Shown here: positions 3,312 to 58,511 of the stretch, piece after piece
Position numbering within the stretch: the first letter of the stretch is position 1
Layout: each line of letters starts with the position of its first letter
Assembly (NCBI RefSeq): GCF_029277445.1
Contig: NZ_CP119568.1
Span: 62,001-126,000, forward strand
Direction of reading: 5' to 3'
Length of the DNA: 64,000 bases
From: Pararhizobium qamdonense
GTDB lineage: Bacteria; Pseudomonadota; Alphaproteobacteria; Rhizobiales; Rhizobiaceae
Translations under genes and position numbers: made by a program
The notes under the pieces: generated by a model
What the model saw: only the letters and a program-made list of their open reading frames with translations
Databases searched by the model: none
Told to the model about the DNA's origin: nothing

Positions 3312-3323
3312 TTGACAACAGAA

Positions 3324-4304
3324 ATGGCAGAACAGTTTGACATGTTTTCGGAGCAGGCTGCGCGCGATCCGATGGTCACGCGTGGCGCCACCAAATCCGC
3401 CAAACCGGACAGGCATGCCATCCCCATGAGTGAAGCGGACATGGTCCGTCATCTGTCGGAGACAGGCCGCTATCGGATCCTGCAGAAACTGGTGCCGCGC
3501 GCAATCTCACCGTTCCCGCGTCCGGAGTACCGCCTCAAGGGCATCATTCTCGACACAGAGACCACGGGCCTGAATGCTCGCAAGGATGAGATCATCGAGA
3601 TTGGCGTGATCGCTTTCACCTTCGATGCGACCGGAAGCATCGGTGACGTGACCGGCATCTACGGTGGACTTCAGCAGCCAAGCGTTTCGGTTCCCACAGA
3701 AATCACTAGGCTTACCGGGATCACCGACGAAATGGTCGCCGGACAATCGATCGATGTGACTGCTTTGCGGGCGCTGATAGAACCGGCGGATCTGGTGATC
3801 GCCCATAATGCCGGTTTCGACCGGCCATTCTGCGAGGCATTCTCTCATCTATTTTCCGGCAAGGCCTGGGCCTGCTCGAACTCCGAGATCGATTGGGCTT
3901 CGCGTGGATATGAAGGCACCAAGCTCGGCTACCTCATTGGGCAGGCAGGCTACTTCCATGAAGGTCATCGGGCGGTCGATGATTGTTTCGCGCTATTAGA
4001 GGTTCTCGCTCGGGAAGTCGATGGATCGGCTTCCACCGCTTTCGCGGAACTCTATCAAGCAAGCCAGAGATCGCGTGTCCGGATCTTTGCGGAGAACAGC
4101 CCCTTCGACATGAAGGACCATCTGAAGGCGCGAGGCTATCGCTGGTCCGACGGAAGCGACGGCCGTCCCAAATCCTGGTGGATCGAGGTTGGCGAAGAAG
4201 CGCTCGATGTTGAGCTCCGCTATCTCAGGGCCGAAATCTACCGCTATCCAGACGCCGATCCTCCCATCAAACACCTGACCGCCTTCGACCGCTTCCGGGC
4301 CTGA
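3324..4304 (+). CDS. DEDDh 3'-5' exonuclease (DNA polymerase III epsilon-like)
   Basis: This is a 326-residue 3'-5' exonuclease of the DnaQ superfamily. The three motifs are in order: Exo I LDTETTG, Exo II VIAHNAGFDRPF, and Exo III-epsilon EGHRAVDDC (histidine five residues before the last aspartate), giving a complete DEDDh metal site. An N-terminal stretch of about 80 residues and a C-terminal region with HLKARGYRWSDG and KSWWIEV flank the nuclease core; such a tail is found in plasmid-borne rhizobial homologues and may bind DNA. It is not the replicative epsilon subunit, since no clear clamp-binding tail is seen. TTG at 3312 is an alternative start. Its place next to repair genes suggests a repair or proofreading role. 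Confidence 0.8.
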   Translation: MAEQFDMFSEQAARDPMVTRGATKSAKPDRHAIPMSEADMVRHLSETGRYRILQKLVPRAISPFPRPEYRLKGIILDTETTGLNARKDEIIEIGVIAFTFDATGSIGDVTGIYGGLQQPSVSVPTEITRLTGITDEMVAGQSIDVTALRALIEPADLVIAHNAGFDRPFCEAFSHLFSGKAWACSNSEIDWASRGYEGTKLGYLIGQAGYFHEGHRAVDDCFALLEVLAREVDGSASTAFAELYQASQRSRVRIFAENSPFDMKDHLKARGYRWSDGSDGRPKSWWIEVGEEALDVELRYLRAEIYRYPDADPPIKHLTAFDRFRA

Positions 4305-4423
4305 TGCAATCCTATTGATGCATCTCCGAAGCGACCCATGCTTTGAGCGCATGGCCGACCTGAGACCTTGTGCCTTATCGACGGGCGGGCAACGGCCTAT
4401 ATTCTAATCATCGAAACGACGTT

Positions 4424-4449
4424 GGAACTAAAGCATGGTTGCTGGCGTC
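4424..4449 (+). promoter_or_regulatory. possible EcfG-type promoter of the DUF1127 gene
   Basis: GGAAC at 4424-4428, then 17 bases, then CGTC at 4446-4449, close to the GGAAC-N16/17-CGTT general-stress consensus. It ends 26 bp before the start codon. Confidence 0.4.
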
Positions 4450-4475
4450 AAGAGAACTCACGAAAGGGGATCACC

Positions 4476-4622
4476 ATGAACGTAGCACGCTCTTTCAATA
4501 ACTGGCGCAAGTATCGTCAGACCGTTACCGAACTCGGCCGCATGAGTTCGCGCGAATTGCAAGACCTCGGCATCGATCGCGCCGACATCCACAGCGTTGC
4601 CCGCCAGTCGGTGGCTCGCTAA
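4476..4622 (+). CDS. DUF1127 (YjiS-like) small protein, 48 aa
   Basis: This is a 48-residue arginine-rich protein with the DUF1127 core WRKYRQTVTELGRMSSRELQDLGI. Members act in Alphaproteobacteria as small regulators; in Rhodobacter a DUF1127 protein (CcaF1) is an RNA-binding protein co-transcribed with CcsR sRNAs, and in Agrobacterium several affect phosphate and carbon use. AAAGGGGA ends 5 bases before ATG 4476, which fixes the start. A terminator-like hairpin follows, and 125 bp later comes an array of four CCTCCTCCC hairpins, the same gene-RNA arrangement as in Rhodobacter. An EcfG-like element lies upstream. Confidence 0.88.
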   Translation: MNVARSFNNWRKYRQTVTELGRMSSRELQDLGIDRADIHSVARQSVAR

Positions 4623-4653
4623 GCGGCTTTTCCTGCCCATCCTGTATGACAGT

Positions 4654-4680
4654 ACGCCCGCTGATGACGCGGGCGTTTTT
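4654..4680 (+). terminator. rho-independent terminator after DUF1127 gene
   Basis: A 7-bp GC stem, CGCCCGC (4655-4661) with GCGGGCG (4669-4675), a 7-base loop and five T (4676-4680). It probably stops most, but perhaps not all, transcription into the downstream RNA array. Confidence 0.8.
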
Positions 4681-4805
4681 GTGTCTGACCGCCGCGAGGC
4701 GCCGCGCTGGAGATCGCTCTCATCAGAACTACGTCGTGCATTCTACGCATAGCTGCACTGCAGCAAAGTCTATTTAATGTGCTGTGTGAATGAGTATCTT
4801 GGTTT

Positions 4806-4968
4806 CCATCGAAGCGATGCACCTCCTCCCGCAGAGCTTCGATTTCAGACGGCCCACTCCTCCTCCCAAGGGACGTCTGTCGGAACAGCGGCACTCCTCC
4901 TCCCAGCCGTTGTTCGGCTCTTTTCGGAAAGCCTGCCGCACCTCCTCCCGCGGCAGGCTTTTCGTTTT
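4806..4968 (+). ncRNA. tandem array of four CCUCCUCCC-loop sRNAs (cuckoo/CcsR-like)
   Basis: Four hairpins follow each other. H1: ATCGAAGC 4808-4815 with GCTTCGAT 4836-4843, extended by TGC/GCA. H2: CAGACG 4846-4851 with CGTCTG 4874-4879. H3: a 10-bp stem 4883-4892 with 4906-4915 (one G-U). H4: a perfect 12-bp stem 4928-4939 with 4950-4961, then a T-rich tail. Each loop presents CCTCCTCCC (4822-4830, 4859-4867, 4896-4904, 4941-4949), while the stem sequences are unrelated and compensate pairwise. The motif is complementary to Shine-Dalgarno sequences. This matches the cuckoo/CcsR family, tandem sRNAs next to DUF1127 genes in Alphaproteobacteria. Processing into four RNAs and the promoter are inferred. 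Confidence 0.85.
4928..4968 (+). terminator. terminator formed by the last array hairpin
   Basis: The fourth array hairpin has a perfect 12-bp stem and is followed by TTCGTTTTC, so it can end the sRNA transcript. The same stem read on the minus strand lies just behind the dinB stop codon and may end that operon too. Confidence 0.6.
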
Positions 4969-4981
4969 CAGGGCCGTCGCA

Positions 4982-6110
4982 TTAGAGCCCGAGAGCGAGT
5001 TGCGGTTCTTGCCCGCTCACTTCCGTGTTGAGCGATGACAGGGTGATCCCGAGGAGCCGCACCGGACGTTTGAACGGGAACACCGAGGCGAGCAGGGTCT
5101 CAGCATTCTCCAGGACCATGTCGATGTCTGACATGGATCCCGACACGGTCCTGCTGCGGGTCGCCTGACTGAAATCCGAATATTTGATTTTGACGGTGAT
5201 CGTCTTTCCCGTGATGTCGTGCGCCTCGCAATACCGCCAGACCTTCTCGGCCAACCGGCCGCAACTCGGCTTTGGCCAGATCGAAATCGTCGATGTCCTC
5301 AACGAAGGTGTCTTCCGCGCCGACGGACTTCCGGATGCGATCAGGTCTAACCTGCCGTTCGTCGATCCCGCGGGCAATGCCGTAGAAATACGGACCGGAC
5401 TTGCCGAAATTCTGCTGAAGGAACGCGAGGGACTTCGACTTGAGATCAAGCCCCGTCTCTATGCCATGCCGTTTCATTCGCTCGGCCGTGGCCGGCCCCA
5501 CGCCATGGAATTTCTTGACGGGGAGGGCCTCGACAAAACCCGGGCCGTTCTTTGGCGTAATGACCGCCTGGCCATTCGGCTTGTTCAGATCGCTCGCCAT
5601 TTTGGCCAGGAACTTGTTGTAGGAGATGCCAGCCGACGCATTGAGGCCCGTGACCGCCTTGATTTTCGCACGGATCTCAAGCGCAATCTCGGTGGCGATC
5701 TCCATGCCCTTCAGGTTTTCGGTGACGTCGAGATAGGCTTCGTCCAGCGACAGTGGCTCGATCAGCGGCGTGTATTCGGCAAAAATCTCGCGGATCTGCT
5801 GCGAGACCTGCCGATAGACGTCGAAGCGCGGCGGCACAAAAATCAGATCCGGGCATTTGCGCTTGGCGGTGACCGATGGCATGGCCGAATGCACGCCGAA
5901 GACACGGGCCTCGTAACTCGCGGCCGCCACAACGCCACGTGCCGCGGATCCACCGACGGCCAGTGGCAGGCCACGCAGCTCCGGGTTGTCACGTTGCTCG
6001 ACCGAGGCATAAAAGGCATCCATATCGACATGGATGATTTTGCGCACGGGTTGCACGCTCCCCATGACGTCAGTTCCCAAAGAATAAGCCGGCATTTGGT
6101 AAACCGCCAT
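4982..6110 (-). pseudogene. dinB: DNA polymerase IV, frameshifted
   Basis: This is a Y-family translesion polymerase. The N-terminal part is intact: IIHVDMDAFYASVEQ carries the first catalytic aspartates, LSLDEAYLDV the second acidic pair, and KFHGVGPATAERMKRHG the thumb HhH. After DDFDLAKAELRP the frame breaks; the correct little-finger sequence (LAEKVWRYCEAHDITGKT and on) continues in another frame to the stop at 4982. One extra base in the CCGG at 5255-5258 explains this. Read in one frame the protein ends in unrelated residues at 5100. It is the last gene of the helicase-SRAP-dinB operon, starting 28 bp after SRAP. The indel may be real or a sequencing error. Confidence 0.85.
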
Positions 6111-6138
6111 TTGACTGCCCTGGTCGTGCTCTGTGCTT

Positions 6139-6816
6139 TCAAAGCAGCAGACCTTCCTCGTCCGGCTTCGGTTTGGCCTGTGGCGGCACGATCACAAGCA
6201 TGTTGCCCGGGAGCGGACGCTGTAGGTGGCGGGCTTCATCCCACGGTGCTGTCAACCAGGTCTCGACTTCTTCAGGCGTGGTCAGGATGGAGGGCATTGC
6301 CTTTTGATGGATAGGCGAGACGATCTCGTTGGGCGAGGTCGTCAAAAATCCGAACAGCTCGTATTCCTGCTCGCCATCCCTGACTTTGCGCACGCCCTTC
6401 CAGGGCGTCCAGAAGCCCGCGAAAAACATCAGCGGCCGGTCTTCGTTGCCGGCGAACCAGGCGTTCGGCACACGCCCGCCTTCGACCTTGCTGGCCGGGT
6501 CGGGCTCGGCAAAGGAGGTGAACGGGACTACGCAGCGGCTGGTGGGTCCAAGCCAGCGGCGCCAGTGCGGCGACGCCACATTGCGGATATTGGTGACGCC
6601 GGGATCGTAGTTCTTCACATAGGCAGGCGGTGACGGCATGCCCCATGTTGCCCGTGCAATCTCCCGCTGACCGTCCTCTGCGATGCGGACAATCGGCGCT
6701 TGATAGCCCGGGTAAACGTCGAAGCTCGCTTCGTTCCAGCCAGCGCGATCCCGGAAGGCTTTCGTGAACTGCAGAACCGCGTCACGGGTGGTGGTCACAT
6801 TGTAGAGATTGCACAT
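6139..6816 (-). CDS. SRAP (SOS response-associated peptidase/YedK) protein
   Basis: This is a 225-residue SRAP protein. The family (YedK, HMCES) shields abasic sites in single-stranded DNA by forming a thiazolidine crosslink through cysteine 2. The key residues are present: C2 exposed after the initiator (MCNLYNV), asparagines in TNIRN (76-79), E104 in TSFAEPD, and H170 in SPIHQKAMP. The length is normal. It lies 12 bp downstream of the helicase gene and upstream of dinB, in an operon behind a perfect SOS box, so it is probably DNA-damage induced. A second, more diverged copy lies at 22827-23534. Confidence 0.93.
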   Translation of the reverse strand: MCNLYNVTTTRDAVLQFTKAFRDRAGWNEASFDVYPGYQAPIVRIAEDGQREIARATWGMPSPPAYVKNYDPGVTNIRNVASPHWRRWLGPTSRCVVPFTSFAEPDPASKVEGGRVPNAWFAGNEDRPLMFFAGFWTPWKGVRKVRDGEQEYELFGFLTTSPNEIVSPIHQKAMPSILTTPEEVETWLTAPWDEARHLQRPLPGNMLVIVPPQAKPKPDEEGLLL

Positions 6817-33942: not shown

Positions 33943-34629
33943 ATGGCATCGCTCAACCGCTCCACCCAGAAGAACCGTCCCGCCAAATCCCAACGCGCCA
34001 CCACCCTCGAAATGGTCAGGCACGCCTGCCCTGATACAGCCCAGGCGCTGCGCATCTCCGAAAGCTTCGGCCTTGCCCTCATCGACAGCGACGGGATCCG
34101 CGACCTCCACCGCGGCCAGTTGATCGAAAGCGCCGATGCCCTGAAGGAGGGCCTCGTCGAAAAGGCCATGCAGATCCACATGCAACGCATCGTCGGATCC
34201 TTCGTCGGCTCAGCCTACGGCGCCGGGCAATTCTACAGCCGCGCGGTTACAGAGGCCCGCGACCTCACCACCAAGCTTTCCAACGATACCAGAGACGAGG
34301 ACCTCGACGGCCCGGTAGGCTTCGACAGCCGCGCCCAGCGCAAGCGCGAGTTCGCAGCCGACATGGGCCTGCAGGTCCACGTGCTTCGCATGGCAGCCGA
34401 AGGTGCGGTCTCCGCCTACGAAGACATCACCGGAGAGACCTGGAAGCCCTATGAGCGCACGGTCGAGCAACCCGCCAACTCTGTGACAGACAAGCTGCGA
34501 CTGCCCAAATGTCAGCGTTCGAGTAGCCGACTTGCGGGGCTTCGGCCCCGCATTTCTCCAATGCCCGCAACGCCGTTGCGACGTGTTTCGGAAAAGAAAA
34601 AAGGGCCGACGGAAAACCGCGGCCCATAA
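33943..34629 (+). CDS. conserved rhizobial plasmid protein, altered C-terminus
   Basis: The protein begins MASLNRSTQKNRPAKSQR and has LRISESFGLALIDSDGIRDLHRG, then GSFVGSAYGAGQFYSRAVTEARDLTTKL and GFDSRAQRKREFAADMGLQ. Near-identical proteins are spread over rhizobial plasmids; their function is unknown. The expected ending is a short AAAQMSAFE-like tail. Here that tail (AATAQMSAFE and TAG at 34524-34526) is found in another frame, and the actual frame reads through to 34629. A terminator hairpin starts 6 bases after the expected stop, which supports one lost base near 34486-34492. Confidence 0.7.
   Translation: MASLNRSTQKNRPAKSQRATTLEMVRHACPDTAQALRISESFGLALIDSDGIRDLHRGQLIESADALKEGLVEKAMQIHMQRIVGSFVGSAYGAGQFYSRAVTEARDLTTKLSNDTRDEDLDGPVGFDSRAQRKREFAADMGLQVHVLRMAAEGAVSAYEDITGETWKPYERTVEQPANSVTDKLRLPKCQRSSSRLAGLRPRISPMPATPLRRVSEKKKGPTENRGP
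34533..34557 (+). terminator. terminator after the expected stop of the 33943 gene
   Basis: TGCGGGGC (34533-34540), loop TTCG, GCCCCGCA (34545-34552), then TTTCT. It falls inside the frameshifted reading frame, but directly behind the native stop. Confidence 0.75.
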
Positions 34630-34831
34630 AGTGTGAAGGTCATGGACCTCCAGAGGGGAACAGCTGCTGCGGCGGAACTGGGAGGAGCCGCCATGTGCAT
34701 CAGCTGAAGTCTGTATGCACGAATTTTCACCACGCTGCACCTAATTTTTGTGCAGTGCAGCTATGCGTTCGTGGCCTGAAGGACCGCAATCCCTATGCCG
34801 GCATTTTTCCGATGCGCTATTAAAGTGAACG

Positions 34832-40713: not shown

Positions 40714-41282
40714 AATTGGTAAAGTCGATTTGCGGCCAGGTTGCTCCTCGCGATCTGGCCGTTGGTGGCTTAAAGGAACCGGTTGCACGGCGGAAAACTT
40801 CGAGCGGCTTGAAGCCCTTGGATTGGTCCAGGGTGTGGTCTGTCTGAAGCTGGGAGTGGGGAGTGAGCACGTCTCAATCTTGTCACCCGTCCAGGCATGG
40901 CACCACAACCACCAGCGCGAAGAAGCAATGCAGCGTTCCCGGGAACCTCCCAAATCCAGTCGTTGGCTTTGACCAAGTGTTTGGGGCTTGTGGGCGCTAT
41001 GCATCCATTCCCATTGGTCGCCACCCGATGATGCCAATGTGTATCCCTTGATCCGCCAGCTGGCACGTCCACTGCGGTCTCGATGGGGCATGTCTGACCA
41101 AAGACCGCCTCGAGGTGCTCGGCTCGATCGGCATCCGCAACGGCCGGCTCGTTTTCTTCCCCTGACTGCAAGCAGCCATTCCTCGCGAGGCAAGAAAGCC
41201 TCTCCTATGGCCGTCCTCCACTCCGTTTCGGCCTTTCAGGTGCGGGCCCATCGTCCCCGGTCCTATCGACTGCCATCGAGAT
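40714..41282. other. gene-poor stretch with a degenerate gene end and one copy of a leader repeat
   Basis: No intact gene is seen. At 41096-41167 one frame reads like the end of a protein (LTKDRLEVLGSIGIRNGRLVFFP and stop) that has no intact beginning. From about 41090 the sequence is a diverged copy of the region before the DUF736 gene at 43065. Confidence 0.45.
41090..41282 (+). repeat. leader repeat, copy A (truncated by the IS)
   Basis: The core ATTCCTCGCGAGGCAA (about 41178-41193), CGTCCTCC and GTCCTATCGACTGCCATCGAG match, with differences, the region 42836-43024 before the first DUF736 gene. The similarity ends at about 41282, where the IS110 element begins. Boundaries are by eye. Confidence 0.5.
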
Positions 41283-41352
41283 CCTATGAGTAATGGCGGC
41301 GATCTGTTTTGATCTGGTTGACGTCAATGCCGTTGCAGAAAGGAGCAGGACG

Positions 41353-42507
41353 ATGTCGCAGGATGGTGTTTATGCAGCAGGAACTCCCCAAAGAGAGCTC
41401 GGGGCGATTTTCACCTCGATCGAATTGAGCAAAAAGACGTGGCTACTGACCTCGATGTCACCCGGCGCCGGTGAGAAGATGTCTCGTCACATTATTGCCG
41501 GTGGCGATATCACCGGCCTTTTTGCCCAACTCACTATGTTGCGGCGAAGGGCGTACGACCGAACCGGCTCCGATTATCCGTTCGTCATTATACAGGAGGC
41601 CGGCCTCGATGGATTCTGGGTCCACCGCGCGCTGACGGCAGAGGGCTACGAGAGCCATGTCGTTGACGCGGCCTCCATTGCAACATCACGACGCAAGCGG
41701 CGGGTGAAGACCGATAGATTAGACGGCGAGAGTTTGATCCGAGCGTTGCTCGCCTTCAAGCGGGGAGAGCCGCGGGTCTGCTCGATGTTGCGCGTGCCGA
41801 CCCCGGATGAAGAAGATCGCCGTCGCATCGTCCGGGAGCGGAAAGTTCTGATGGAAGAGCGTATTCGACACAGCAACCGTATCAAGGGTCTGCTCTTCTC
41901 GCAGGGGATCACTGGCTACGATCCCCTGCGACGTGATCGCCGCGAACAGTTGGAGACGCTTCGTACGGGCGATGGGCGAGCTTTGCCGCTACACATGAAA
42001 CGGCAGGTCTTGCGCGAGATGACCCGCATGGACCTGCTGATCGACCAGATCAAGGAGGTTGAGGCAGAACGTGACGACATGCTTGCGGAGGAACGGCAGT
42101 CGGCTCGCGAAGTGGTATTGCTGTCGAAGGTCGTGGGTATCGGGCCAGAGTTTGCTGCAGTCCTTTGGGGTGAGGGCTTGTTTCGACGGTTCGACAATCG
42201 GCGGCAAGTCGCCGCCTACGCGGGGCTTGCGCCAACGCCTTGGCAGAGCGGATCGATTGACCGGGAGCAGGGCATTGGCAAGTCCGGGAACCCTCGGCTT
42301 AGATCGACCCTGTTGGAGATGGCCTGGCTTTGGTTGAGGCATCAGCCCGCCTCAACGCTCAGCCGTTGGTTCAATGAACGAGTCGCGCAAAATGGCGGCC
42401 GCTTCAAGAAGGTGATGATCACGGCACTGGCGCGCAAGCTGGTTGTGGCGTTGTGGAAATATGCCAGCGCGGGCGTCGTGATCGAGGGCGCGGTGGTCAG
42501 ACCGTGA
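41353..42507 (+). CDS. IS110-family transposase, 384 aa
   Basis: This is a DEDD-type recombinase of the IS110 family. The N-terminal RuvC-like domain has IFTSIELSKKTWLLTSM (here glutamate where most members have aspartate), VIIQEAGLDGFWVHRAL, and RRVKTDRLDGESLIRALLA with the D-x2-D pair. The C-terminal domain has the transposase_20 pattern VVGIGPEFAAVLWGEG, then AYAGLAPTPWQSGSIDREQGIGKSGNPRLR with the active-site serine. AAGGAG ends 7 bases before ATG 41353. The gene looks intact, so the element could be active. Confidence 0.92.
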   Translation: MSQDGVYAAGTPQRELGAIFTSIELSKKTWLLTSMSPGAGEKMSRHIIAGGDITGLFAQLTMLRRRAYDRTGSDYPFVIIQEAGLDGFWVHRALTAEGYESHVVDAASIATSRRKRRVKTDRLDGESLIRALLAFKRGEPRVCSMLRVPTPDEEDRRRIVRERKVLMEERIRHSNRIKGLLFSQGITGYDPLRRDRREQLETLRTGDGRALPLHMKRQVLREMTRMDLLIDQIKEVEAERDDMLAEERQSAREVVLLSKVVGIGPEFAAVLWGEGLFRRFDNRRQVAAYAGLAPTPWQSGSIDREQGIGKSGNPRLRSTLLEMAWLWLRHQPASTLSRWFNERVAQNGGRFKKVMITALARKLVVALWKYASAGVVIEGAVVRP

Positions 42508-42800
42508 CCGTTTAAGCGCATACCAGTTCGGCACAGGCCTGATCAGCCTCGCCGGAACCAGGTGGACGACCGCATCGCGGCTTGGCTTCAAATGCCGTCA
42601 TCGAGAATGGTCTCGTCCTCCTGAGCCCTAGCCGCCGTAGGCGGGATTGTGGTGCGGCCGTTGAAACGGCGACCGGATATGAGGTTGATACGTGCAGGGC
42701 GCGCGGATCAAGAAACGGGCTCAGACCGAAGGTTCTAAAGGCGAATTCGATGCGCCACCAGTGCCGGTCCATGGTTGGAAGATCGTTGTCCAGCATCGTT
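42508..42800 (+). ncRNA. candidate bridge-RNA-bearing non-coding end of the IS110 element
   Basis: IS110-type elements carry a structured 'bridge' RNA in a non-coding end. This right end of about 300 bp has no gene and shows small hairpins: CCGCC-GTA-GGCGG (42632-42644) and GCCGTT-GA-AACGGC (42657-42670). The left end is only about 70 bp, so if such an RNA exists it should lie here. This is inference from family knowledge. Confidence 0.3.
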
Positions 42801-42835
42801 CTCGTGAGAGACCGGTGTCCGGAGCGGCCCCTTGC

Positions 42836-43024
42836 GACCTCTCTTCAGGCTGGTCTGACGCCAATCTGTCCTGATCCTGCAACGGCTTCGCCGAACTTCT
42901 TCCCCTGCGTCGTCGCCGCATTCCTCGCGAGGCAACAAGTCCGGCTTTCGCCGTCCTACGCTTAGCGCTGCGGCCCTTGGGATGCAGTCGGCCTGATTGG
43001 CGTCTTACGACCGCTATCGAGGCC
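42836..43024 (+). repeat. leader repeat, copy B (before the DUF736 gene)
   Basis: It shares ATTCCTCGCGAGGCAA (about 42921-42936) and GTCTTACGACCGCTATCGAG with copy A at 41090-41282. The centre of the shared motif is the palindrome CCTCGCGAGG. Copy B continues into the DUF736 gene; copy A is cut by the IS. Confidence 0.5.
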
Positions 43025-43064
43025 GCAAGGGGCGGCTTCGGCAAACTCAGTCAGGAGAATGACA

Positions 43065-43388
43065 ATGGCTACCATCGGAACCTTCCAACAATCGGGCAAC
43101 GACTTCAGCGGCGAGATCGTCACTCTTTCCCTCCAGACCAAAAACGTCCGCATCGTTTCCGATACGCGCTCCAGCGGCGAAAACGCTCCCAGCCACCGCG
43201 TCTTCGTCGGCCGGATCGAAATCGGAGCCGCCTGGTCCAAGCAGTCCAACGAGGGCCGCAACTACCTCGGTCTCAAACTCGACGACCCGAGCTTCACGGC
43301 TCCGCTCTACGCAAATCTGGTCGAAGACGAAGATGGCAAGGCCTTCAGCCTCATCTGGTCGCGGCCGAACCGCCGGTCCGGCGACTAA
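43065..43388 (+). CDS. DUF736 family protein, 107 aa
   Basis: The protein begins MATIGTFQQSGNDFSGEIVTLSL and contains IEIGAAWSKQSNEGRNYLGLKLDDPSFTAPLYANL, the DUF736 signature. The family is very common on rhizobial plasmids, usually in tandem copies, and is suspected to take part in plasmid maintenance or single-stranded DNA handling; no activity is proven. ATG 43065 is preferred to 43059 because AGGAG lies 7 bases before it. A 10-bp hairpin and the second DUF736 gene follow. Confidence 0.9.
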   Translation: MATIGTFQQSGNDFSGEIVTLSLQTKNVRIVSDTRSSGENAPSHRVFVGRIEIGAAWSKQSNEGRNYLGLKLDDPSFTAPLYANLVEDEDGKAFSLIWSRPNRRSGD

Positions 43389-43398
43389 CCCCTCCCAA

Positions 43399-43428
43399 CG
43401 TGACGCCCTACACCTGCGGGGCGTCACG
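43399..43428. other. 10-bp perfect hairpin between the DUF736 genes
   Basis: CGTGACGCCC (43399-43408) pairs with GGGCGTCACG (43419-43428). No T-run follows, so it is more likely an RNA stability or attenuation element than a classical terminator. A second smaller hairpin (GCCACTC with GAGTGGC) follows at about 43436-43472. Confidence 0.6.
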
Positions 43429-43527
43429 AAAACCAGCCACTCACAGCTCGAAACCGTAGCTTGACGAGTGGCTCCTCATATGAGGCCGCGATGGACGCGG
43501 CCCGAACAACCGAAAAGGATTACGACA

Positions 43528-43839
43528 ATGGCAACCATCGGCTCTTTCACCGCTTCCGGCAACGGCTTCTCCGGCACCATCAAGACCCTCAACCTCAACG
43601 TCAAGGCAACCATCCGCGCCGTCGAGCGCACTTCCGAAAAGGGCCCGGACTACCGCATCCTCGCCGGGGCTACGGTCGAATTCGGCGCAGCCTGGAAGAA
43701 GACCTCGAACGAAGGCCGTGACTACCTCTCGGTCAAGCTCGACGATCCGAGCTTCCCGGCCCCGATCTACGCGACGCTAATCGAGGTCGAAGGTGAAGAA
43801 GGCCTCTCCCTCATCTGGTCCCGGTCGAACCGGGACTGA
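43528..43839 (+). CDS. DUF736 family protein, 103 aa (paralogue)
   Basis: This protein begins [23 protein letters not shown] and has [35 protein letters not shown]; it is clearly a paralogue of the gene at 43065, about half identical by eye, so an old duplication. It keeps the same WSRSNRD-type ending (WSRPNRR in the first copy). ATG 43528 follows AAAAGGA. Function unknown; see the first copy. Confidence 0.9.
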
Positions 43840-43848
43840 TACTGGATG

Positions 43849-43866
43849 CCCCGCCGTAAGGCGGGG
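43849..43866. terminator. hairpin between convergent DUF736 and HU genes
   Basis: CCCCGCC (43849-43855), loop GTAA, GGCGGGG (43860-43866). It lies between two convergent genes and may serve both, although no T-run is present. Confidence 0.45.
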
Positions 43867-43882
43867 CTCTCCACGTCAAGGA

Positions 43883-44161
43883 TCACTTGTTCAGTGCATC
43901 CTTGAGCGCCTTGGCAGGCGCAAAGGTCAGCTTCTTCGAAGCCGCAACCGTCATCTTCTCTCCGGTCGCAGGATTGCGACCCTCGCGCTCAGGCGAAGCT
44001 TTCACCTTAAATTTGCCGAAGCCAGGGATCGACGTTTCAGCGTCGGAGCCTGCAGCATCGGCGATGGCCTGGAACACGGCCTCGACAATGCCCTTGGACT
44101 GAACCTTCGTCAGGCCGTTGTCGGCTGCAATCTTGTCGGCGATTTCATTGGTGGTGGTCAT
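43883..44161 (-). CDS. HU-family DNA-binding protein, 92 aa
   Basis: This is a full-length HU/IHF-type nucleoid protein. The conserved arm region is FGKFKVKASPEREGRNPATGEKMTVAASKKLTF, with the GRNPxTG motif and the intercalating proline. The N-terminal helices (NEIADKIAADNGLTKVQSKGIVEAV) form the dimer. It bends DNA without strong sequence preference. Plasmid copies often help with replication, transfer or silencing. It is encoded convergent with the DUF736 genes. Confidence 0.95.
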   Translation of the reverse strand: MTTTNEIADKIAADNGLTKVQSKGIVEAVFQAIADAAGSDAETSIPGFGKFKVKASPEREGRNPATGEKMTVAASKKLTFAPAKALKDALNK

Positions 44162-44244
44162 GGAATTCCTCGCATCTTGTTGTCAAAGATAAAATCCGTG
44201 TCAGCTTATGACCGGATTGTCATCGGCGACGATGGAGACGAGGA

Positions 44245-44511
44245 TCAGATCCGTGGGATGTCCACAGGTCGTTTTGGCCGATAACCCCGTTTGCGCTTCT
44301 CACAAAGGACGTCGAGGAACAGGTTGATGGCCTGGCTCTCGTTGTCAAACAGATGCACCATCTGCTGTCCGCGCGTTCCAATCCGCCCCCAGGCACGTAT
44401 AAGCGACATCTCGCCGAACAATGTCGGCTGAACGGCGAGCGCGTAGAACCGCGCCATGTTCGTTTCCGGCGCGATACGCTCGATATAGAGGTGGTAGGGC
44501 TGCGTGATCAT
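44245..44511 (-). CDS. WGR-domain protein, 88 aa
   Basis: The protein is one WGR domain: NMARFYALAVQPTLFGEMSLIRAWGRIGTRGQQMVHLF with the name-giving tryptophan-glycine-arginine, and a closing helix (AINLFLDVLCEKRKRGY). WGR domains are found in PARPs and MolR-type proteins and bind nucleic acid ends. Short stand-alone versions are typical of rhizobial plasmids. It lies 95 bp behind the nuclease gene and on the same strand as the traCDG operon. Confidence 0.85.
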   Translation of the reverse strand: MITQPYHLYIERIAPETNMARFYALAVQPTLFGEMSLIRAWGRIGTRGQQMVHLFDNESQAINLFLDVLCEKRKRGYRPKRPVDIPRI

Positions 44512-44606
44512 GACGGCAGATTCGCGCGTTCAAAGACTGCCGTCCAATGAGAGTTTTGAATCGGATGGGCCTTATCGATTCATAACATTGATCCCCGACG
44601 CCCGGA

Positions 44607-45044
44607 TCACTCGCACCAGCCCCGGCGTGATACCTGCCACTTCCGGGCCAGTCCCTCGGCAACGAGCATATCCCCGACCGATCGCCGATCTCGGTAGACG
44701 ATCCTGAACTTGCGACCGAAGCGATCTTCATCCCTGGCGGTCGTCTTGAACAAGAGCGGACCGGAATTCAGGGTGTCGAGCAAACGTTGTTTCGCCGCAA
44801 GGCCACGCTTGCGTTCGCTCTCGCATCTTGGCGGGCTGAGCTCCGGCGTGTCGATGTCGGCGATCCTGATCTTTTCACCTCGAAACCAGAACGTATCACC
44901 GTCCACCACGCAGGTGATCCTATGGCCGCCATCGCACAGAGAGAAGGCTTCGCTCGCTCTTTTCGGCTGTTGGGCTGACACCGCGGATGCGAGGAGGCAG
45001 ACTGCTATGGTCGATAGGGTGGCAACGGCCGTGGAAATTTTCAA
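44607..45044 (-). CDS. secreted thermonuclease-family (SNase) protein, 145 aa
   Basis: A signal peptide is clear (MKISTAVATLSTIAVCLLASAVSAQQ). The mature part is a staphylococcal-nuclease-like domain: VVDGDTFWFRGEKIRIADIDTPEL with the metal-site aspartates, then RDEDRFGRKFRIVY and VGDMLVAEGLARKW. The family cleaves DNA or RNA in the periplasm. The start codon overlaps the traG stop by 4 bases (ATGA), so it is the last gene of the traC-traD-traG operon. Such nucleases are frequent in Dtr regions; their role in transfer is unclear. Confidence 0.88.
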   Translation of the reverse strand: MKISTAVATLSTIAVCLLASAVSAQQPKRASEAFSLCDGGHRITCVVDGDTFWFRGEKIRIADIDTPELSPPRCESERKRGLAAKQRLLDTLNSGPLLFKTTARDEDRFGRKFRIVYRDRRSVGDMLVAEGLARKWQVSRRGWCE

Positions 45045-47016
45045 TCTATTGTCTCCTCGATTCCCGTGGAGCGGCCTGTCCCATTTGCATTCGACCCTTT
45101 TATGGCTTGCCTGTGAAACCGGTTCTCCCCGACGGAAGCGCTCATATCCTTGCGCCTGAACCAGATGGCGCGACCGCAGCGTAGCGGCGCATTGCCAGCG
45201 GTGAAGACGATCTGCTCGTCGCCGCGCATGCGCATCACTTCATGCGGGAGGATCAGCGGACGGCGGGTCAATTGTTTCGATCGTGAGCGCGACGATCCTT
45301 TCATTCCGGAAGAGCGGTTTGTCTGGTCGATCTCGACCGTGGTGTCGCCGCAGCGCTTGGATATGTACTCTGCGGACTCCGGATCGTTGATCGCCGCGAA
45401 CGAAATCCACGATGCAGACTCGAACCATTTCGAGCTGGCATCGCGACCGCCATAGGCTTCGCGCATCTGGCCGAGTGACTGGAAGATCAGTGCCAGGCTG
45501 ATGCCATATTTGCGTCCGGCGTCACGGGCGGTTTCCAGGACGCGCAGATAGCCGAGGCGGGCTACCTCATCGAGCAGAAACAGGGTGCGACCTGCAACCT
45601 CGCCATTGCGATTATAGATCGCATTGAGGAAGGAGCCGATGACGACCCTTGCCAGCCCCGGGTGCGATTCCAGAACCTTCAGGTCAAGGGCGATGAAGAT
45701 GTCCGTGCCGCCGGTCGCCAGCTCGTCGGTCGAGAAGCTGTCGCCTGAAACGAGGGCGGCATAGTTCGTATAGGAGAGCCAGTGCGTTTCCTTGACCGCA
45801 TTGGCGTAAACACCGCTGAATGTTTCCGGCGTCATGTTGACGAATACGGCGACGTTCTCGCGCACGAAGGTGGATTGCGACTGCTCGTAAATCCGCGTTA
45901 ACCGCTCCCGCAGTTTCGGTTCGGGCTCGGATAGATTGGCGCGGACACGGCGCAGCGTCTGGTCCCTGGCGTCCGTGTGTCCGGACAGGCAGACATCGGC
46001 GATCAGCGCCGTCAGCAGCTACATGGCGGACGCGCGGAAGAAGTCGTCGCGTGCGGAAGCTGCTCGGGCATTGTCGGTCATGATCCAGGTCGCGACTGCG
46101 ACGATGTCCTCTTCCTTCGTGCTGCCGTGTCGCCCGATCCAGTCGAGCGCGTTGAAACCGACGCCTGACGCCTAGGGATCGAGAATGATCACCTTCCGGC
46201 CAGTCTTGCGGCGATGCTCCGATACCATCGGCGCCACTTCGCTCGACGGATCGAGGACGACAAGGCCGCACCCCACTTGAGCGCGGTCGGGACCGTTACC
46301 GACGTCGTCTTGAAGCCACCGGAGCCGGCGAAGACAATGCCATGGGACGAGCCGAACGAGCCGTCGAAGCATAGGAGCGGGCTCTTGCCCCCCGCTCCCC
46401 AGGTCGACGGATCGTCAGCGCGGAACGACACGGCCGCAACGCTGTCGCGATCGACGCGATATCGTTCGCCTAGGACGATGCCGCCGGGATCGGGAAAAAG
46501 TTTTGCAGCCTCCTGCACCGTCATCCAGTCGGCCTCGCCATGCACCGCTCGCTTTCCCCCAATCCGCCGTGGTGCGGCTTGGGCAAAAGCTGCGTTTCCC
46601 TTCGTCGTGACGCGCAGTGCGAAGACGCCGGCGAGGAATGCTGTCAATGCGCCAAGCATCGTTGCGGGGTCCGCATATCCGAGCACGGATTGACCTTTCG
46701 GGATGTCGCCAGCCATCCCGGCCAGGCGAACCCCCTCGCGCAGGCGAGCGATGAGGATTGCCACTCCATTTCCGCTAACGACCCCCCATCCTGCAGCCTT
46801 GATACCCGCTGCGCCATTTGCCGCGAACAGAAAGATCGTGCCGATTGCAGCCGCAGTGGCATAGGGCAACGCAAGGCCGATCCGCCCGAGCATCAGCTTG
46901 GCCTGCGCGGTCTTGCCGAGCGCGGCCAGCAAGTGTTCGATCCCCGGCATGAACACCACGACGACGATCATCGTCGCCGCCGGGATGACGGCGAGGAACA
47001 GTTTACTCACTGTCAC
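45041..47016 (-). pseudogene. traG: conjugation coupling protein TraG, degraded
   Basis: TraG is the VirD4-like ATPase that links relaxosome and mating channel. The first part has the membrane segments and Walker A (GSGGFKTTSVTVPTALKWG). Then the frame shifts near 46270; the proper sequence (LVVLDPSSEVAPMVSEHRRKTG) goes on in another frame. That frame has a TAG at 46172-46174 (LDP-stop-ASGVGFNALDW) and a second TAG at 46019-46021 (SAM-stop-LLTALIADV), and then reads cleanly to 45041 with Walker B FLLDEVARLG. Three separate lesions make sequence error unlikely as the only cause. The plasmid cannot use its own coupling protein. Confidence 0.9.
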
Positions 47017-47218
47017 GACCGAACACCTCCGCGCCTATCACTGTCAGGCGCGATTGCTCCGTATCGTTGCCCTTGAGGCGACGACTGGCATCGATCAGCA
47101 GGCCGAGCAGTAGTGCCCGCTTCTCGTAACGCAGTCCTGCCTTGACGATGAGGCCACCGAGTTCGATTTTTTCGCGGGTGTCTTTCTTTCGGGCGTCAGC
47201 CGTCATTGTGCGGGCCAT
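47003..47218 (-). CDS. traD: TraD, conjugal transfer protein
   Basis: This 71-residue protein reads [40 protein letters not shown], the typical TraD sequence and length in Ti/rhizobial plasmids. It helps the relaxosome by an unknown mechanism. It overlaps the traG start by 14 bases and lies 4 bp after traC. Confidence 0.92.
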
Positions 47219-47222
47219 GCGT

Positions 47223-47519
47223 TCAAGCCTCACCAGGCCTGCCCGCAGGCGCGCCAGTTTCGATCGTCGTGACCGTCTCGCCTGCGGTCCTGCCGTCGCC
47301 GACATTTCTCTTCCCGGTCGCACTTCCTTTGCCTCCGCGAAACCGCCTGGTGATCTCCTCGAACGCAGCCTGTAACTCGTTTTCCTCGATCTCGATCTCA
47401 CCGAGGCCGGCCTTCAACGCGATCCGGCCGATGCGCTCGGCCTCGCGTGTTTCCGCTTGTCTCAGCTGATCCTGCAATCTGGCGATTTCTTCCCTGATCT
47501 TCGATGATGGTTTCTTCAT
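47223..47519 (-). CDS. traC: TraC, conjugal transfer protein
   Basis: This 98-residue protein begins [46 protein letters not shown], which is the conserved coiled-coil start of TraC, and has a basic glycine-rich tail. TraC is thought to bind oriT together with TraA and TraD. It is the first gene of traCDG and reads away from oriT. The ATG at 47519 is chosen as the conserved start. Confidence 0.92.
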
Positions 47520-47594
47520 TCCGGTCGCATCTCCCCTGGAAATCTTGGCGGCTCTGTTCCGTTGCAAGATTTCCCCAAAAGCACATCCGAAGGA

Positions 47595-47612
47595 ATGTGC
47601 AGATCTGCACGT
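47595..47612. promoter_or_regulatory. tra box (TraR binding site)
   Basis: ATGTGCAGATCTGCACGT at 47595-47612 differs at one position from the 18-bp tra box of Ti plasmids (dyad ATGTGCAGATCTGCACAT). It lies between traC and traA and is placed to control both divergent operons. Confidence 0.9.
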
Positions 47613-47659
47613 CGGCAAAGCCGACACTTTGGAGGATGATCCCGCCGTTCCGAAGGAGC

Positions 47660-47700
47660 GGATCCAAGTGCGCAATTATACGTCGCTGACGCGACGCCCT
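47660..47700. other. oriT: oriT nick region
   Basis: AAGTGCGC at 47666-47673 resembles the IncQ/Agrobacterium nick-site core (TAAGTGCGCCCT). Directly after it comes the inverted repeat CGTCGC-TGAC-GCGACG (47681-47696). The place between traC and traA is where rhizobial oriT sites are found. The exact nick position is inferred. Confidence 0.75.
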
Positions 47701-47777
47701 GCGTAGGGGCCTAAAGAGGGGCCGACCATGGTCCGACCGCTCCCGACGATGAAGTTCAAACCGGGAGCTTTACCGCC

Positions 47778-50700
47778 GTGGCCATCGCGCACTTCTCAGC
47801 CAGCATCGTCAGCCGCGGCGGCGGCCGCAGTGTGGTGCTGTCTGCTGCCTACCGGCACTGCGCCAAGATGGAATATGAGCGCGAGGCCCGTACCATCGAC
47901 TACACCCGTAAAGAGGGGCTGCTGCATGAGGAATTCGTCTTGCCTGCCGATGCCCCGAAATGGGTGCGCGCGATGATTGCCGACCGCTCTGTTGCCGGAG
48001 CTTCGGAAGCCTTCTGGAACAAGGTCGAAGCCTTCGAAAAGCGTTCTGATGCGCAGCTCGCTCGCGACCTGACCATTGCGCTTCCATTGGAGCTGTCTAC
48101 CGAGCAGAACATCGCACTGGTGAGGGACTTCGTCGAGAAACACGTCCTCGCCAAGGGTATGGTGGCCGACTGGGTCTACCACGACAATCCCGGCAATCCG
48201 CATATCCATCTGATGACCACATTGCGTCCGCTGACCGAGGACGGGTTCGGATCGAAGAAGGTCGCGGTCGTTGGCGAGGATGGCCAGCTGGTCCGCACGA
48301 AGTCCGGGAAAATCCTCTATGACCTCTGGGCCGGATCGACCGACGACTTCAACGTCCTGCGCGATGGATGGTTCGAGCGGCTGAACCATCATCTGGCGCT
48401 CGGCGGGATCGATCTCAAGATCGACGGCCGTTCCTACGAGAAGCAGGGCATCGAACTCGAGCCGACCATCCATCTTGGCGTTGGCGCCAAGGCGATCGAG
48501 CGAAAGGCGCAGGAGCAGGGCGTCCGGCCAGAGCTTGAGCGCATTGAATTGAACGAAGAGCGGCGGTCGGAAAACGTGCGTCGTATCCTGCGCAATCCAG
48601 CCATCGTGCTCGACCTGATCACGCGAGAGAAGAGCGTCTTCAATGAACGCGATGTCGCAAAGGTTTTGCATCGCTATGTCGATGACCCGACTGTTTTCCA
48701 GAAACTGATGTTACGCATCATCCTGAATCCCGAGGTACTTCGGCTGCAGCGTGACACGATCGCGTTCGCGACCGGAGAAAAGGTGCCGGCCCGTTATTCG
48801 ACCCGTGCGATGATCCGGCTGGAAGCGACGATGGTGCGGCAGGCAATCTGGCTGTCGAACCGGGACGGTCATCCAGTCTCTGAAGCAGCTCTGGCCGCAA
48901 CGTTCCGGCGGCATGAGCGGTTGTCGGACGAGCAGAAAACTGCGATCGAGCGGATCGCCGGTCCCGCCCGGATCGCAGCTGTGGTTGGACGCGCCGGCGC
49001 TGGCAAAACCACGATGATGAAAGCTGCCCGCGAGGCATGGGAACTGGCCGGATATCGTGTGGTCGGCGGAGCACTTGCCGGCAAGGCGGCGGAGGGCCTG
49101 GAAAAGGAAGCTGGGATACAGAGCCGGACGCTTGCGTCTTGGGAACTGCGCTGGAACCGTGGTCGTGACGTTCTCGATGACAAAACCGTCTTTGTCCTGG
49201 ACGAGGCCGGCATGGTCGCCTCAAAACAGATGGCCGGCTTTGTCGATGCCGTCGTCAGGGCAGGTGCCAAGATCGTTCTGGCCGGCGATCCCGAACAGCT
49301 CCAGCCGATCGAGGCGGGGGCTGCCTTCCGCGCCATCGTTGACCGCATAGGTTATGCCGAACTCGAGACAATCTATCGCCAGCGCGAGGACTGGATGCGC
49401 AGGGCGTCACTCGATCTGGCGCGAGGCAACGTGGAAAAGGCGCTGACCGCCTATGATGCCAATGTCAGGATCACGGTAACGCGCCTGAAGGCCGAAGCGG
49501 TCGAGCGGCTCATCGGTGACTGGAACCACGATTACGATCAGACGAAGACAACATTGATCCTCGCGCATCTGCGCCGTGACGTGCGCATGCTGAACATTAT
49601 GGCCCGCGAAAAATTCGTTGAACGCGGCATTGTCGGTGAGGGCCATGTCTTCAAAACGGCTGACGGCATTCGCCAGTTCGACGCGGGCGACCAGATCGTC
49701 TTCCTGAAGAACGAAGGGTCGCTCGGCGTCAAGAACGGCATGATCGCTCATGTCGTTGAGGCTGCACCAAACAGGATCGTTGCTGTTATCGGAGAGGGTG
49801 ATCAGCGCCGCCAGGTCATCGTCGAGCAACGCTTCTACAGCAATCTTGATCATGGCTACGCCACCACGATCCATAAATCGCAAGGCGCTACTGTCGACCG
49901 CGTGAAGGTGCTGGCAAGCCTGTCGCTCGATCGGCATCTGACCTACGTGGCGATGACCCGCCACCGCGAAGATTTGCAGCTTTATTACGGCCGCCGGTCA
50001 TTCGCCTTCAACGGCGGGCTCAGCAAAGTTCTTTCCCGAAAAAATGCCAAGGAGACCACGCTCGATTATGAGCGCGGAAGGCTTTACCGCGAGGCGCTGC
50101 GGTACGCAGAAAACCGTGGCCTCAACATCCTCCAGGTGGCGCGGACGCTGCTACGCGACCAACTCGACTGGACGCTGCGCCAGAAGACGAAACTGGTCGA
50201 TCTCGGCCAGCGCCTTGCAAACTTTGCAGAGCGTCTCGGTCTGCACCATCCCCCGAAAACCCAAACGATAAAGGAGGCCGCGCCCATGGTCGCAGGCATC
50301 AAGACATTCCCCGGTTCCGTTGCCGACACAGCATGGAACAAGCTGGACACCGATCCAGCCCTCAAGAAACAATGGGAAGAGGTCTCGGCCCGCTTTTCTT
50401 ACGTCTTTGCCGATCCCGAAACCGCTTTCCGGGCGATGAACTTCGATGCGGTTCTGGTGGATAAGGAAACGGCCAAACTGGCGCTTCAGACGCTGACGAC
50501 CGCCCCGGCGTCGATCGGACCGCTCAGGGGCAAGACAGGCGTTCTTGCTAGCAGGACAGAGCGCGAGGACCGTCGCGTTGCAGACCTCAATGTTCCGGCC
50601 CTGAAGCGCGATCTTGAGCAGTATCTGAGGATGCGCGAGACCGCCGTGCAGCGGCTGCAGGCGGATGAACAGGTTTTGCGTCAGCGCGTGTCGGTCGACA

Positions 50701-51080
50701 TCCCGGCATTGTCGCCGGCAGCACATCTGGTGCTGGAGCGCGTGCGTGATGCAATCGACCGCAACGATCTGCCGGCTGCCATGGCATATGCACTGAGCAA
50801 TCGGGAAACCAAGCTGGAAATTGACGGGTTCAACCAAGCCGTCACCGAACGCTTCGGCGAACGTACCATGCTCACCAATGCCGCGCGCGAACCCTCCGGA
50901 AAGCTCTTCGACAAACTCTCCGAAGGGATGCAGCCCGAGCAGAAGGAGCGTCTGAAGGAAGCTTGGCCGATCATGCGTACGTCGCAGCAACTCGCCGCTC
51001 ACGAGCGCACCGTCCAGACCCTGCGGCAAGCCGAGGATTTGCGTCTCTCCCAGCGCCAGACGCCGGTGATGAAACAATGA
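47778..51080 (+). CDS. traA: TraA, relaxase-helicase
   Basis: This 1100-residue protein is the conjugative relaxase of Ti-like plasmids. The N-terminal MOB-Q domain (about 1-250) has [25 protein letters not shown] and the metal-binding histidines in [11 protein letters not shown]. The middle is a RecD-like SF1 helicase: Walker [14 protein letters not shown] (about residue 405), [25 protein letters not shown] and [10 protein letters not shown]. The C-terminal third is helical. The start is GTG 47778. It is intact and full length, so strand cutting and unwinding at oriT should still work. traF follows with a 4-base overlap. Confidence 0.96.
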
Positions 51081-51604
51081 GTCGGCGCCTTCTCCTGTTC
51101 CTGGCCGGTGCGGGCGGGGTGATCGCCGCACTAGTGGCAGTCGGCTATATGGGCGGCTTTCGGTTGAACCTGACGCCGAGCGAGCCGCTTGGACTCTGGC
51201 GTATCGTGACCCTCCAGCGTCCGGTCGAAGCCGGCGATCTCGTGTTCATCTGCCCACCGGCAACCGCTTCATTCGAGGAAGCACGGCGCCGCGGCTATGT
51301 CAGGCGCGGCCTCTGCCCGGGTGGCTATGCGCCGCTGATCAAGACAGTGGCGGCGCTTCCCGGACAGCATGTGGAAATAGGCGCGAATGTCACTGTCGAC
51401 GGTAGGCCTCTCGCCTCATCGATCGTTCGCGCGAGCGATGGCGAGGGCAGGGCGATCACACCGTTCAAAACCGGCATCGTGCCACTGAGATATCTGTTTC
51501 TTCACTCATCCTTTGCGAGCTCCTATGATAGTCGGTATTTCGGGCCGGTTCCGGACACGGGCCTTCTCGGCCTGGCGCGGCCGGTCCTCACATTCGATCC
51601 ATAA
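51077..51604 (+). CDS. traF: TraF, pilin maturation protease (S26 family)
   Basis: This 175-residue protein is a signal-peptidase-like (S26) protease. The N-terminal membrane anchor is [24 protein letters not shown]; the catalytic serine is in [11 protein letters not shown] and the lysine in [11 protein letters not shown]. TraF cyclises or trims the conjugative pilin TrbC and is also needed for transfer. Its ATG overlaps the traA stop (ATGA). No trb genes are found in this window, so its pilin substrate would need to be encoded elsewhere. Confidence 0.93.
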
Positions 51605-51932
51605 CTGGCGGCGATCCTGCCTGCTCATCGCGGTATCTGTCACTTGCGGCTGGACTGCCTGGAGCGGCCATGTCTTGACCCTTCCGGTTGCTGTGTTGTT
51701 TCCGGCGCTCTGGGTGTTGTCGCCGTCCAGACTGACCGCGTTGCTCGTCTCGGCCGGATATTTTCTGGCTGCCTCGCGTGGGCTGCCGCAGGGCGTCGCC
51801 AACTTCTATGCCGCCGATCTCTGGCCTGGGCTTCTGCTCTGGGCAACAGCTTCTCTCTCCTTTGCCGGCACTGCCGGAAAGCTACAGGTCAGAGGAATTG
51901 ACCGGTGGCCCACAGCATCTTCGTTACATTGA
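51597..51932 (+). pseudogene. traB: TraB, N-terminal piece joined to a deletion
   Basis: The sequence [38 protein letters not shown] and FLAASRGLPQGVANFYAADLWPGLLLW is the start of TraB, a membrane protein that raises transfer efficiency (related to cutin hydrolase/nitrilase-like proteins). It ends at ATASLSF near 51863. Everything after is from a different gene in another frame, so about three quarters of TraB is missing. A proper ATG is also not seen at the start; the codon before HNW is ATC. Confidence 0.85.
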
Positions 51933-52014
51933 GGCCAGCATCGAGATGCACGCGCAGATGAGCGCAGTGAGTACCCTGATCAGCATGCTCGGCTACATCC
52001 CGACCGTTAACTAA
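51868..52014 (+). pseudogene. traM: TraM antiactivator, C-terminal half only
   Basis: The frame reads ALPESYRSEELTGGPQHLRYIEAS and then IEMHAQMSAVSTLISMLGYIP, the second half of TraM, which binds TraR and blocks it. The first about 50 residues are missing; the piece starts straight after the traB break at 51863-51868. A deletion has therefore removed the end of traB, probably traH, and the front of traM. TraR should have lost its normal brake. Confidence 0.85.
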
Positions 52015-52061
52015 TCCGGATTCATGGCCATACATGGTGAGCAACTCGGCCACCGGCGCTC

Positions 52062-58357: not shown

Positions 58358-58367
58358 ACCGCAAAAG

Positions 58368-58418
58368 AAAAAGGCCCCCAAACGTTTCCGTCGTGGAAGC
58401 CCTTCTCATAAGTTTCGC
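58368..58418 (-). ncRNA. antisense RNA (ctRNA/incA) controlling repC
   Basis: The gap between repB and repC carries, on the minus strand, a short transcript that ends in GGGCTTCC...GGAAACGTTTGGGGGCC and TTTTT (58372-58368). repABC plasmids have a ctRNA of about 50-60 nt at this place that blocks repC expression. With the promoter listed next, its length here is about 51 nt. Confidence 0.8.
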
Positions 58419-58424
58419 AGCTAG

Positions 58425-58453
58425 AGAATCACATTTCCACGAATCATAGTCAA
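58425..58453 (-). promoter_or_regulatory. promoter of the ctRNA
   Basis: On the minus strand TTGACT (58453-58448), 17 bases, GATTCT (58430-58425). The -35 box is near consensus and the spacing is ideal; the -10 is moderate. The start site would be about 58418. Confidence 0.65.
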
Positions 58454-58511
58454 GAGTCTTTGGCATCGTTTTGGTGAGCAAATTTCTTTTGCCTTTTACA
58501 AGGTGAAGAAA

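Follow-up and report, generated by a model that had tools for sequence, protein, structure and literature searches.

In S. meliloti, the small RNA SmelA099 (SMa6570), also named smrA6 (PMC7143759), was recovered by a sequencing survey as a 160-nt RNA at positions 1328175-1328334 of pSymA (PMC2873474). Families with four hairpins (SmelA099) and three hairpins (SmelA075), both with similar CCUCCUCCC loops, have been described and likened to RS0680a of Rhodobacter, which likewise has anti-Shine-Dalgarno loops (PMC3927594); the three-hairpin relative SmelA075 is reported to occur in processed forms (PMC3927594, PMC2873474). NfeR1 (Smr14C2; Rfam RF02344) is a chromosomal three-hairpin RNA with transporter genes among its targets, which it represses through its loops independently of Hfq. 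The LsrB site of nfeR1 in S. meliloti lies at -72 to -57 with the motif TGCA-N6-GCAT, and both binding and activation are reported from experiment (PMC10746234). For the abcR1 promoter, an LsrB/VtlR consensus of GCAT-N3-TG-N3-T has been proposed at -61 to -49 (PMC8844928). VtlR directly activates abcR1, vrsA and atu1667 in Agrobacterium (PMC7486931), and abcR2 and three DUF1127 genes in Brucella melitensis (PMC12595884). In Rhodobacter sphaeroides, the DUF1127 gene ccaF1 and the four RNAs CcsR1-4 form a single transcript that is read from an RpoHI/RpoHII promoter and has its terminator at the 3' end (PMC10253847).

The locus compared here with these systems lies in a 64-kb window, the whole stretch of DNA that was analyzed, and consists of the following elements.

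4807..4966, + strand: predicted small RNA of ~160 nt with four hairpins; ends placed by alignment with SmelA099 of pSymA
4808..4843, + strand: hairpin 1 from the fold, an additional module that the Rfam model does not cover; loop motif 4822-4830
4846..4879, + strand: hairpin 2 from the fold, weak alone; loop motif 4859-4867
4883..4915, + strand: hairpin 3 from the fold; loop motif 4896-4904
4925..4964, + strand: hairpin 4 from the fold, its stem running into a T-rich stretch; loop motif 4941-4949
4840..4965, + strand: match to the full Rfam model RF02344, ar14 (NfeR1 family), model positions 1-123; 103.3 bits against a gathering cut-off of 58.8, E 5.7e-18

A sequence-only reading of this DNA had described four consecutive hairpins with unlike stems and CCUCCUCCC in every loop, and this description held. 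The motif CCTCCTCCC occurs in four exact copies in the 64-kb window, all on the + strand and starting at 4822, 4859, 4896 and 4941, against a mean of 0.56 in shuffled sequence (none of 100 shuffles reached four). The predicted fold of positions 4800-4970 as RNA consists of four hairpins independent of one another and has an energy of -72.7 kcal/mol (z = -5.7), a stability equaled by none of 200 shuffles, and the four loop motifs had mean unpaired probabilities of 0.99-1.00. Folded singly, hairpins 1, 3 and 4 were each more stable than all 500 of their shuffles. Hairpin 2 was not outstanding when folded alone: with two different cuts, 28 and 22 of 500 shuffles matched its stability, and with another cut, in which one pair was lost, 113 of 500 did so. 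Hairpin 4 probably doubles as the terminator of the RNA.

The ar14 model contains three hairpins and covers hairpins 2-4 of the array; hairpin 1 falls outside it. The array thus has the three hairpins of the ar14/NfeR1 family, each with an unpaired CCUCCUCCC and a differing stem, plus one in front, and it shares with the SmelA099 subgroup the four modules, the common loop motif and a length of ~160 nt (estimated from homology). The proposal that the RNA structure is under selection had been tied to a covariance-model score, and the score obtained with the ar14 model is well above chance. From its sequence, the array looks like a real, conserved small-RNA gene belonging to the already described NfeR1-type family. 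The four-hairpin plasmid form is not new, having been published since 2010-2011 as SmelA099.

SmelA099 is the closest counterpart. It is plasmid-borne, its four CCUCCUCCC hairpins have their loops at positions 16, 53, 89 and 135 of the 160 nt, a spacing close to that in the window, and its stretch of pSymA aligned with the window array over its length. It also adjoins the 3' end of a dinB gene on the other strand (359 residues aligned at 71% identity) and has a VtlR-like motif at the same distance. It differs from the window array in the sequence of hairpins 2 and 3 and in having no DUF1127 match in the surrounding 5.5 kb. The likeness to NfeR1 lies in identical hairpin loops, an LsrB site at about the same distance and transporter genes as targets, whereas the window array has the extra 5' hairpin and is on a plasmid. 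AbcR1 and AbcR2 (ar15, RF02345) are anti-Shine-Dalgarno small RNAs with the same proposed box at the same distance, but their structure and Rfam family are different, and the array scored below the RF02345 gathering cut-off. The comparison with SmelA099 leads one to expect a single RNA of ~160 nt, and not the four processed RNAs that the sequence-only reading had anticipated.

The array is one of several in its genome, an assembly of 6.24 Mb in five contigs in which the window lies on C3 (615 kb) and C1 is chromosome-sized. Seven loci scored above the ar14 cut-off. By pattern search, C2 has two four-loop arrays and C3 and C4 have one each; the copies on C1 show two or three exact loops. Above-cut-off ar14 matches were present in 37 of 61 genomes (this one and 60 relatives), and the array was matched in 488 of 72,556 plasmid records, in 455 of them over at least 80% of its length. 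Such arrays are therefore common on plasmids, and the Rfam ar14 model omits their recurrent first hairpin. Five CCTCCTCCC loops were seen in two arrays, L021 (3348-3538) and L190, the number of modules in the loci examined being mostly three to five.

Conservation was examined in 80 genome loci selected for a DUF1127 protein similar to that of the window, or 81 loci with the window included. At least three loops were found behind the DUF1127 gene in 38 of the 80 (39 of the 81), and loop 1, with at most one mismatch, was kept in 38 of the 39 loci having at least three loops, being absent only from L053. Thirty-four arrays were aligned, that of the window and those of 33 loci out of the 38 retrieved with at least three loops; as these were selected for four loops within one mismatch, the constancy of loop number in this set is partly due to selection. 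Exactly four loops were present in 32 of the 33, and L013 had one more match, with one mismatch, farther upstream; the alignment left out L021, which has five loops, and L024, L027, L029 and L053, which have three each. The loops had been said to be conserved on covarying stems, which proved right in part. Changes on both sides were seen in 11 of 45 pairs among the 34 arrays, two of these pairs being in hairpin 1, four in hairpin 2 and five in hairpin 3, whereas hairpin 4 had no such pair. They amount to 17 cells, where shuffling gave a mean of 3.8 and 0 of 500 shuffles came as high; as the aligned rows are related, these changes are support rather than proof. The stems are mostly conserved too, however, with a mean column identity of 88%.

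The region upstream of the array contains the following elements, to which a second small-RNA gene of the same plasmid is added.

4349..4361, + strand: imperfect VtlR/LsrB-like box upstream of the DUF1127 gene; one of seven fixed letters differs
4476..4622, + strand: DUF1127 protein of 48 aa; PF06568, E 1.6e-15
4654..4676, + strand: terminator-like hairpin between the DUF1127 gene and the array; 8 pairs, 7 of them G-C, then a T run
4737..4750, + strand: TGCA-N6-GCAT, the LsrB motif of the nfeR1 promoter (motif from PMC10746234), where it is described at -72 to -60
4747..4759, + strand: proposed VtlR/LsrB box GCAT-N3-TG-N3-T, a perfect match spanning -60 to -48 relative to the predicted start (consensus from PMC8844928 and PMC7486931)
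4794..4799, + strand: possible -10 element GTATCT, weak, read from the sequence; no convincing -35
34597..34705, - strand: ar15 (AbcR family) RNA, 114.3 bits; same box at -61 to -49

The DUF1127 gene ahead of the array was confirmed by its Pfam match, and with it one part of the kinship with CcsR and the cuckoo RNAs that had been claimed for this locus: an anti-Shine-Dalgarno hairpin RNA does lie beside a DUF1127 gene, as in the CcsR1-4/CcaF1 system (PMC10253847), and a CcsR-like RNA adjoining a short DUF1127 gene is also the arrangement of cuckoo RNAs/CIN1. The other part, a CcsR-type operon, is improbable. In such an operon, gene and array would share a single promoter, that of DUF1127; RNase E would cleave the joint transcript into separate small RNAs, and the DUF1127 protein would aid their maturation. 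The arrays of at least three loops behind DUF1127 in 39 of the 81 loci would fit this, as would the single ccaF1-CcsR transcript of Rhodobacter (PMC10253847), and the T runs after the terminator hairpin are short in several of the loci listed, which would permit read-through. The sequence nevertheless points away from a CcsR-type operon, because a terminator-like hairpin intervenes and a separate conserved block precedes the array. The Rhodobacter unit is terminated solely at its 3' end, whereas the window has the terminator-like hairpin at 4654-4676; the motif of this hairpin separates gene and array in 37 of the 39 array loci (all except L013 and L071). In the 34-array alignment, the terminator region was 88% conserved, the spacer 4681-4735 only 52% and the block 4738-4763, immediately ahead of the array, 84%. 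Gene and array also occur apart: an array is missing from 41 of the 81 DUF1127 loci, among them L016 and L085, which give no verdict because the contig stops there, and one more locus has two loops. Protein comparison found no DUF1127 match within the 5.5 kb around SmelA099 or the 11 kb around L122, the second array on C2. These observations speak against the operon, although short T runs leave room for read-through, and DUF1127 probably forms a transcription unit of its own, closed by its own terminator. At a chromosomal locus (L125), a pair of ar14 copies is followed by a DUF1127 gene at 5395-5532 (78% identity over 46 aa) and a weaker second match at 6045-6179, so that gene and RNA stand in the reverse order relative to the window.

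Positions upstream of the array were counted from a start set 15 nt ahead of loop 1. An LsrB motif about 60-72 nt before the start, as in NfeR1, is thus present as sequence and relative to a predicted start. A search with the E. coli consensus found no E. coli-type promoter in 4300-5050, and inspection by eye for the nfeR1-type sigma-70 core, CTTAGAC-N17-CTATAT, recovered only the -10-like GTATCT and no clear -35 in the window; judged by consensus, the core promoter is weak. The VtlR/LsrB box was perfect in 29 of the 34 aligned arrays and had one mismatch in five, and its position was nearly fixed, at -60 in 25, at -59 in eight and at -69 in one. A 15-letter VtlR motif (PMC12595884) gave its best match at -60 or -59 in all 34 array promoters, and singly reached p 0.05 in 25 of them against nine of 34 DUF1127 promoters. 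In the DUF1127 promoters of the 34 aligned loci, the box was perfect in 18 and had one mismatch in 16, the window among the latter. This fits the reported activation of DUF1127 genes by VtlR in Brucella, and the DUF1127 unit may answer to the same regulator as the array; the case for such control is weaker for DUF1127 than for the array, because fewer DUF1127 promoters reach p 0.05.

A 16-bp form of the box, the exact 16-mer GCATAGCTGCACTGCA, occurs five times in the genome, always on C2-C4. Of the four four-hairpin arrays, three are preceded by it, one on each of these contigs; the other two occurrences precede the best-scoring ar15 genes, on C4 and C3. With two mismatches, it was found at four further places, only one of which precedes an array (the second C2 array), and the backward control was found at four in all. 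Exact copies in the 61 genomes numbered 23, in 13 genomes of the same genus, with 20 before an array and three before an ar15 gene; because the window supplied the 16-mer, there is some circularity in its association with arrays. For the chromosomal ar14 copies (L001 and L003), the best match to the VtlR/LsrB box in the 260 nt scanned had two mismatches and was not a good one. Adjoining the chromosomal ar15 pair is a gene for a LysR-type protein (PF00126, PF03466), placed as lsrB/vtlR is in the published accounts and presumably its orthologue. The literature searched, mostly passages, outlines and abstracts, contained no statement of a box shared by plasmid copies of ar14 and ar15. The box common to these plasmid-borne genes and the correction of the operon reading are the new points here, and the locus adds a regulatory link that can be tested: an exact 16-bp box at the place where LsrB/VtlR reportedly acts in nfeR1 and abcR1.

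Candidate targets were sought as Shine-Dalgarno sequences able to pair with the loops. The sequence GGGAGGAG stands 4-10 nt before an ATG at 28 sites in the genome, 21 of which open an ORF of at least 60 aa; the other seven, one of them antisense within an ar14 array, were left out. Ten of the 21 ORFs encode periplasmic (transporter) binding proteins by Pfam. A control sequence, GAAAGGAG, with the same spacing gave 22 sites, of which 11 were likewise left out, and none of the remaining 11 ORFs encodes a binding protein; these 11 include two copies of one transposase and three transport permeases. The difference (10 of 21 against 0 of 11; one-sided Fisher p 0.0055) comes from a small test with a single control pattern of the author's choosing. 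The predicted set agrees with the published targets of NfeR1. Two exact patterns for the 16S rRNA 3' end were unmatched in the host assembly, and complementarity of the loops to the host's own ribosome is for that reason assumed.

The explanation that best accommodates these observations, to which a probability of about three in four is given, is that a single small-RNA gene makes up the array: a paralogue of NfeR1 with four hairpins, carried on a plasmid, that would be activated by LsrB/VtlR and would repress uptake genes. The box at 4747-4759 is the predicted binding site of this chromosomal LysR-type regulator, which would from there switch on the transcript of ~160 nt. Its four unpaired CCUCCUCCC loops would then pair with strong Shine-Dalgarno sequences and block translation, the target mRNAs being mainly those of periplasmic binding proteins and catabolic enzymes. 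For the host strain, transcription, LsrB binding, the targets and their repression are all predicted from sequence and from the described relatives. If the arrays are expressed, they would tie the content of a plasmid to the nutrient-uptake programme of its host.

Two other readings accept the structure and dispute its function. A plasmid copy might be kept by linkage only, being hardly transcribed or without effect beside the chromosomal copies, and such a quiet paralogue is a real possibility, if an unlikely one, because only one of the six nfeR1-type copies of S. meliloti was reliably detected on northern blots (PMC7143759); the broken dinB gene next to the array in the window (described below) points the same way. 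Against it, the hairpins and the box are conserved in the 34 aligned arrays, all four loops are kept on C4, where the matches to dinB and the exonuclease gene are confined to short remnants, and SmelA099 was recovered by sequencing (PMC2873474). It is highly improbable that the loops serve as a decoy, mimicking the 3' end of 16S rRNA and titrating messages or ribosome-associated proteins instead of silencing chosen mRNAs; four identical unpaired loops would suit that role, but the three motifs of NfeR1 are reported to be redundant in the silencing of single mRNAs (PMC10746234). The NfeR1-type regulator reading can also be widened, tentatively and with the odds against it: plasmids of Rhizobiaceae may carry a recurrent LsrB/VtlR-controlled anti-Shine-Dalgarno pair, made up of one ar14 copy with four hairpins and one ar15 copy (the combination present on C3 and C4), that damps translation of uptake genes, chromosomal as well as their own, with loop number setting the dose. 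Were this so, incoming replicons would plug into the chromosomal regulator of the host, lowering the cost of newly acquired transporters.

The setting of the array within the window is given by the following elements.

3312..4304, + strand: 3'-5' exonuclease-like protein, a neighbor; PF00929
4982..6110, - strand: dinB-like DNA polymerase IV gene, broken frame, convergent with the array; overlapping ORFs 5100-6110 and 4982-5449; PF00817; two tblastn pieces
~41191-52782: DNA resembling conjugation genes of the Ti type; the best records name traA, traG, traR and TraH
58361-58514: repABC antisense RNA (ctRNA_p42d) and S-element

The plasmid location that had been proposed was borne out: the match at 58361-58514 suggests a plasmid replication region, DNA similar to Ti-type tra genes is present, and a dinB-like gene adjoins the array, this gene being either broken or affected by a sequencing error. 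Beside the four-loop array on C4 (L123), dinB and the exonuclease gene are matched only over short stretches, of 64 aa and 139 aa respectively. On pTiAg57 and pRltCC275eA, the order is exonuclease, DUF1127, four-loop array and dinB, followed by imuA-, polymerase-Y- and error-prone-polymerase genes. A convergent dinB was found in 15 of the 39 array loci and an upstream exonuclease gene in 17, so that this neighborhood is common and not required. A stress link had been drawn from the SOS polymerase neighbors, and control of the array by the SOS response was not borne out. The window contains seven matches to the consensus of the LexA-type box, GTTC-N7-GTTC, where 2.1 would be expected, and no match falls between 1352 and 8934. 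As none lies near the array, the SOS neighbors do not imply SOS control, and this candidate was rejected. A movable post-transcriptional regulon, as the sequence-only reading had phrased it, is possible. The plasmids C3 and C4 both carry an IS110-type transposase ORF, at ~41338 of the window (C3:103338) and at C4:188631, and the two ORFs agree in length and in Pfam score.
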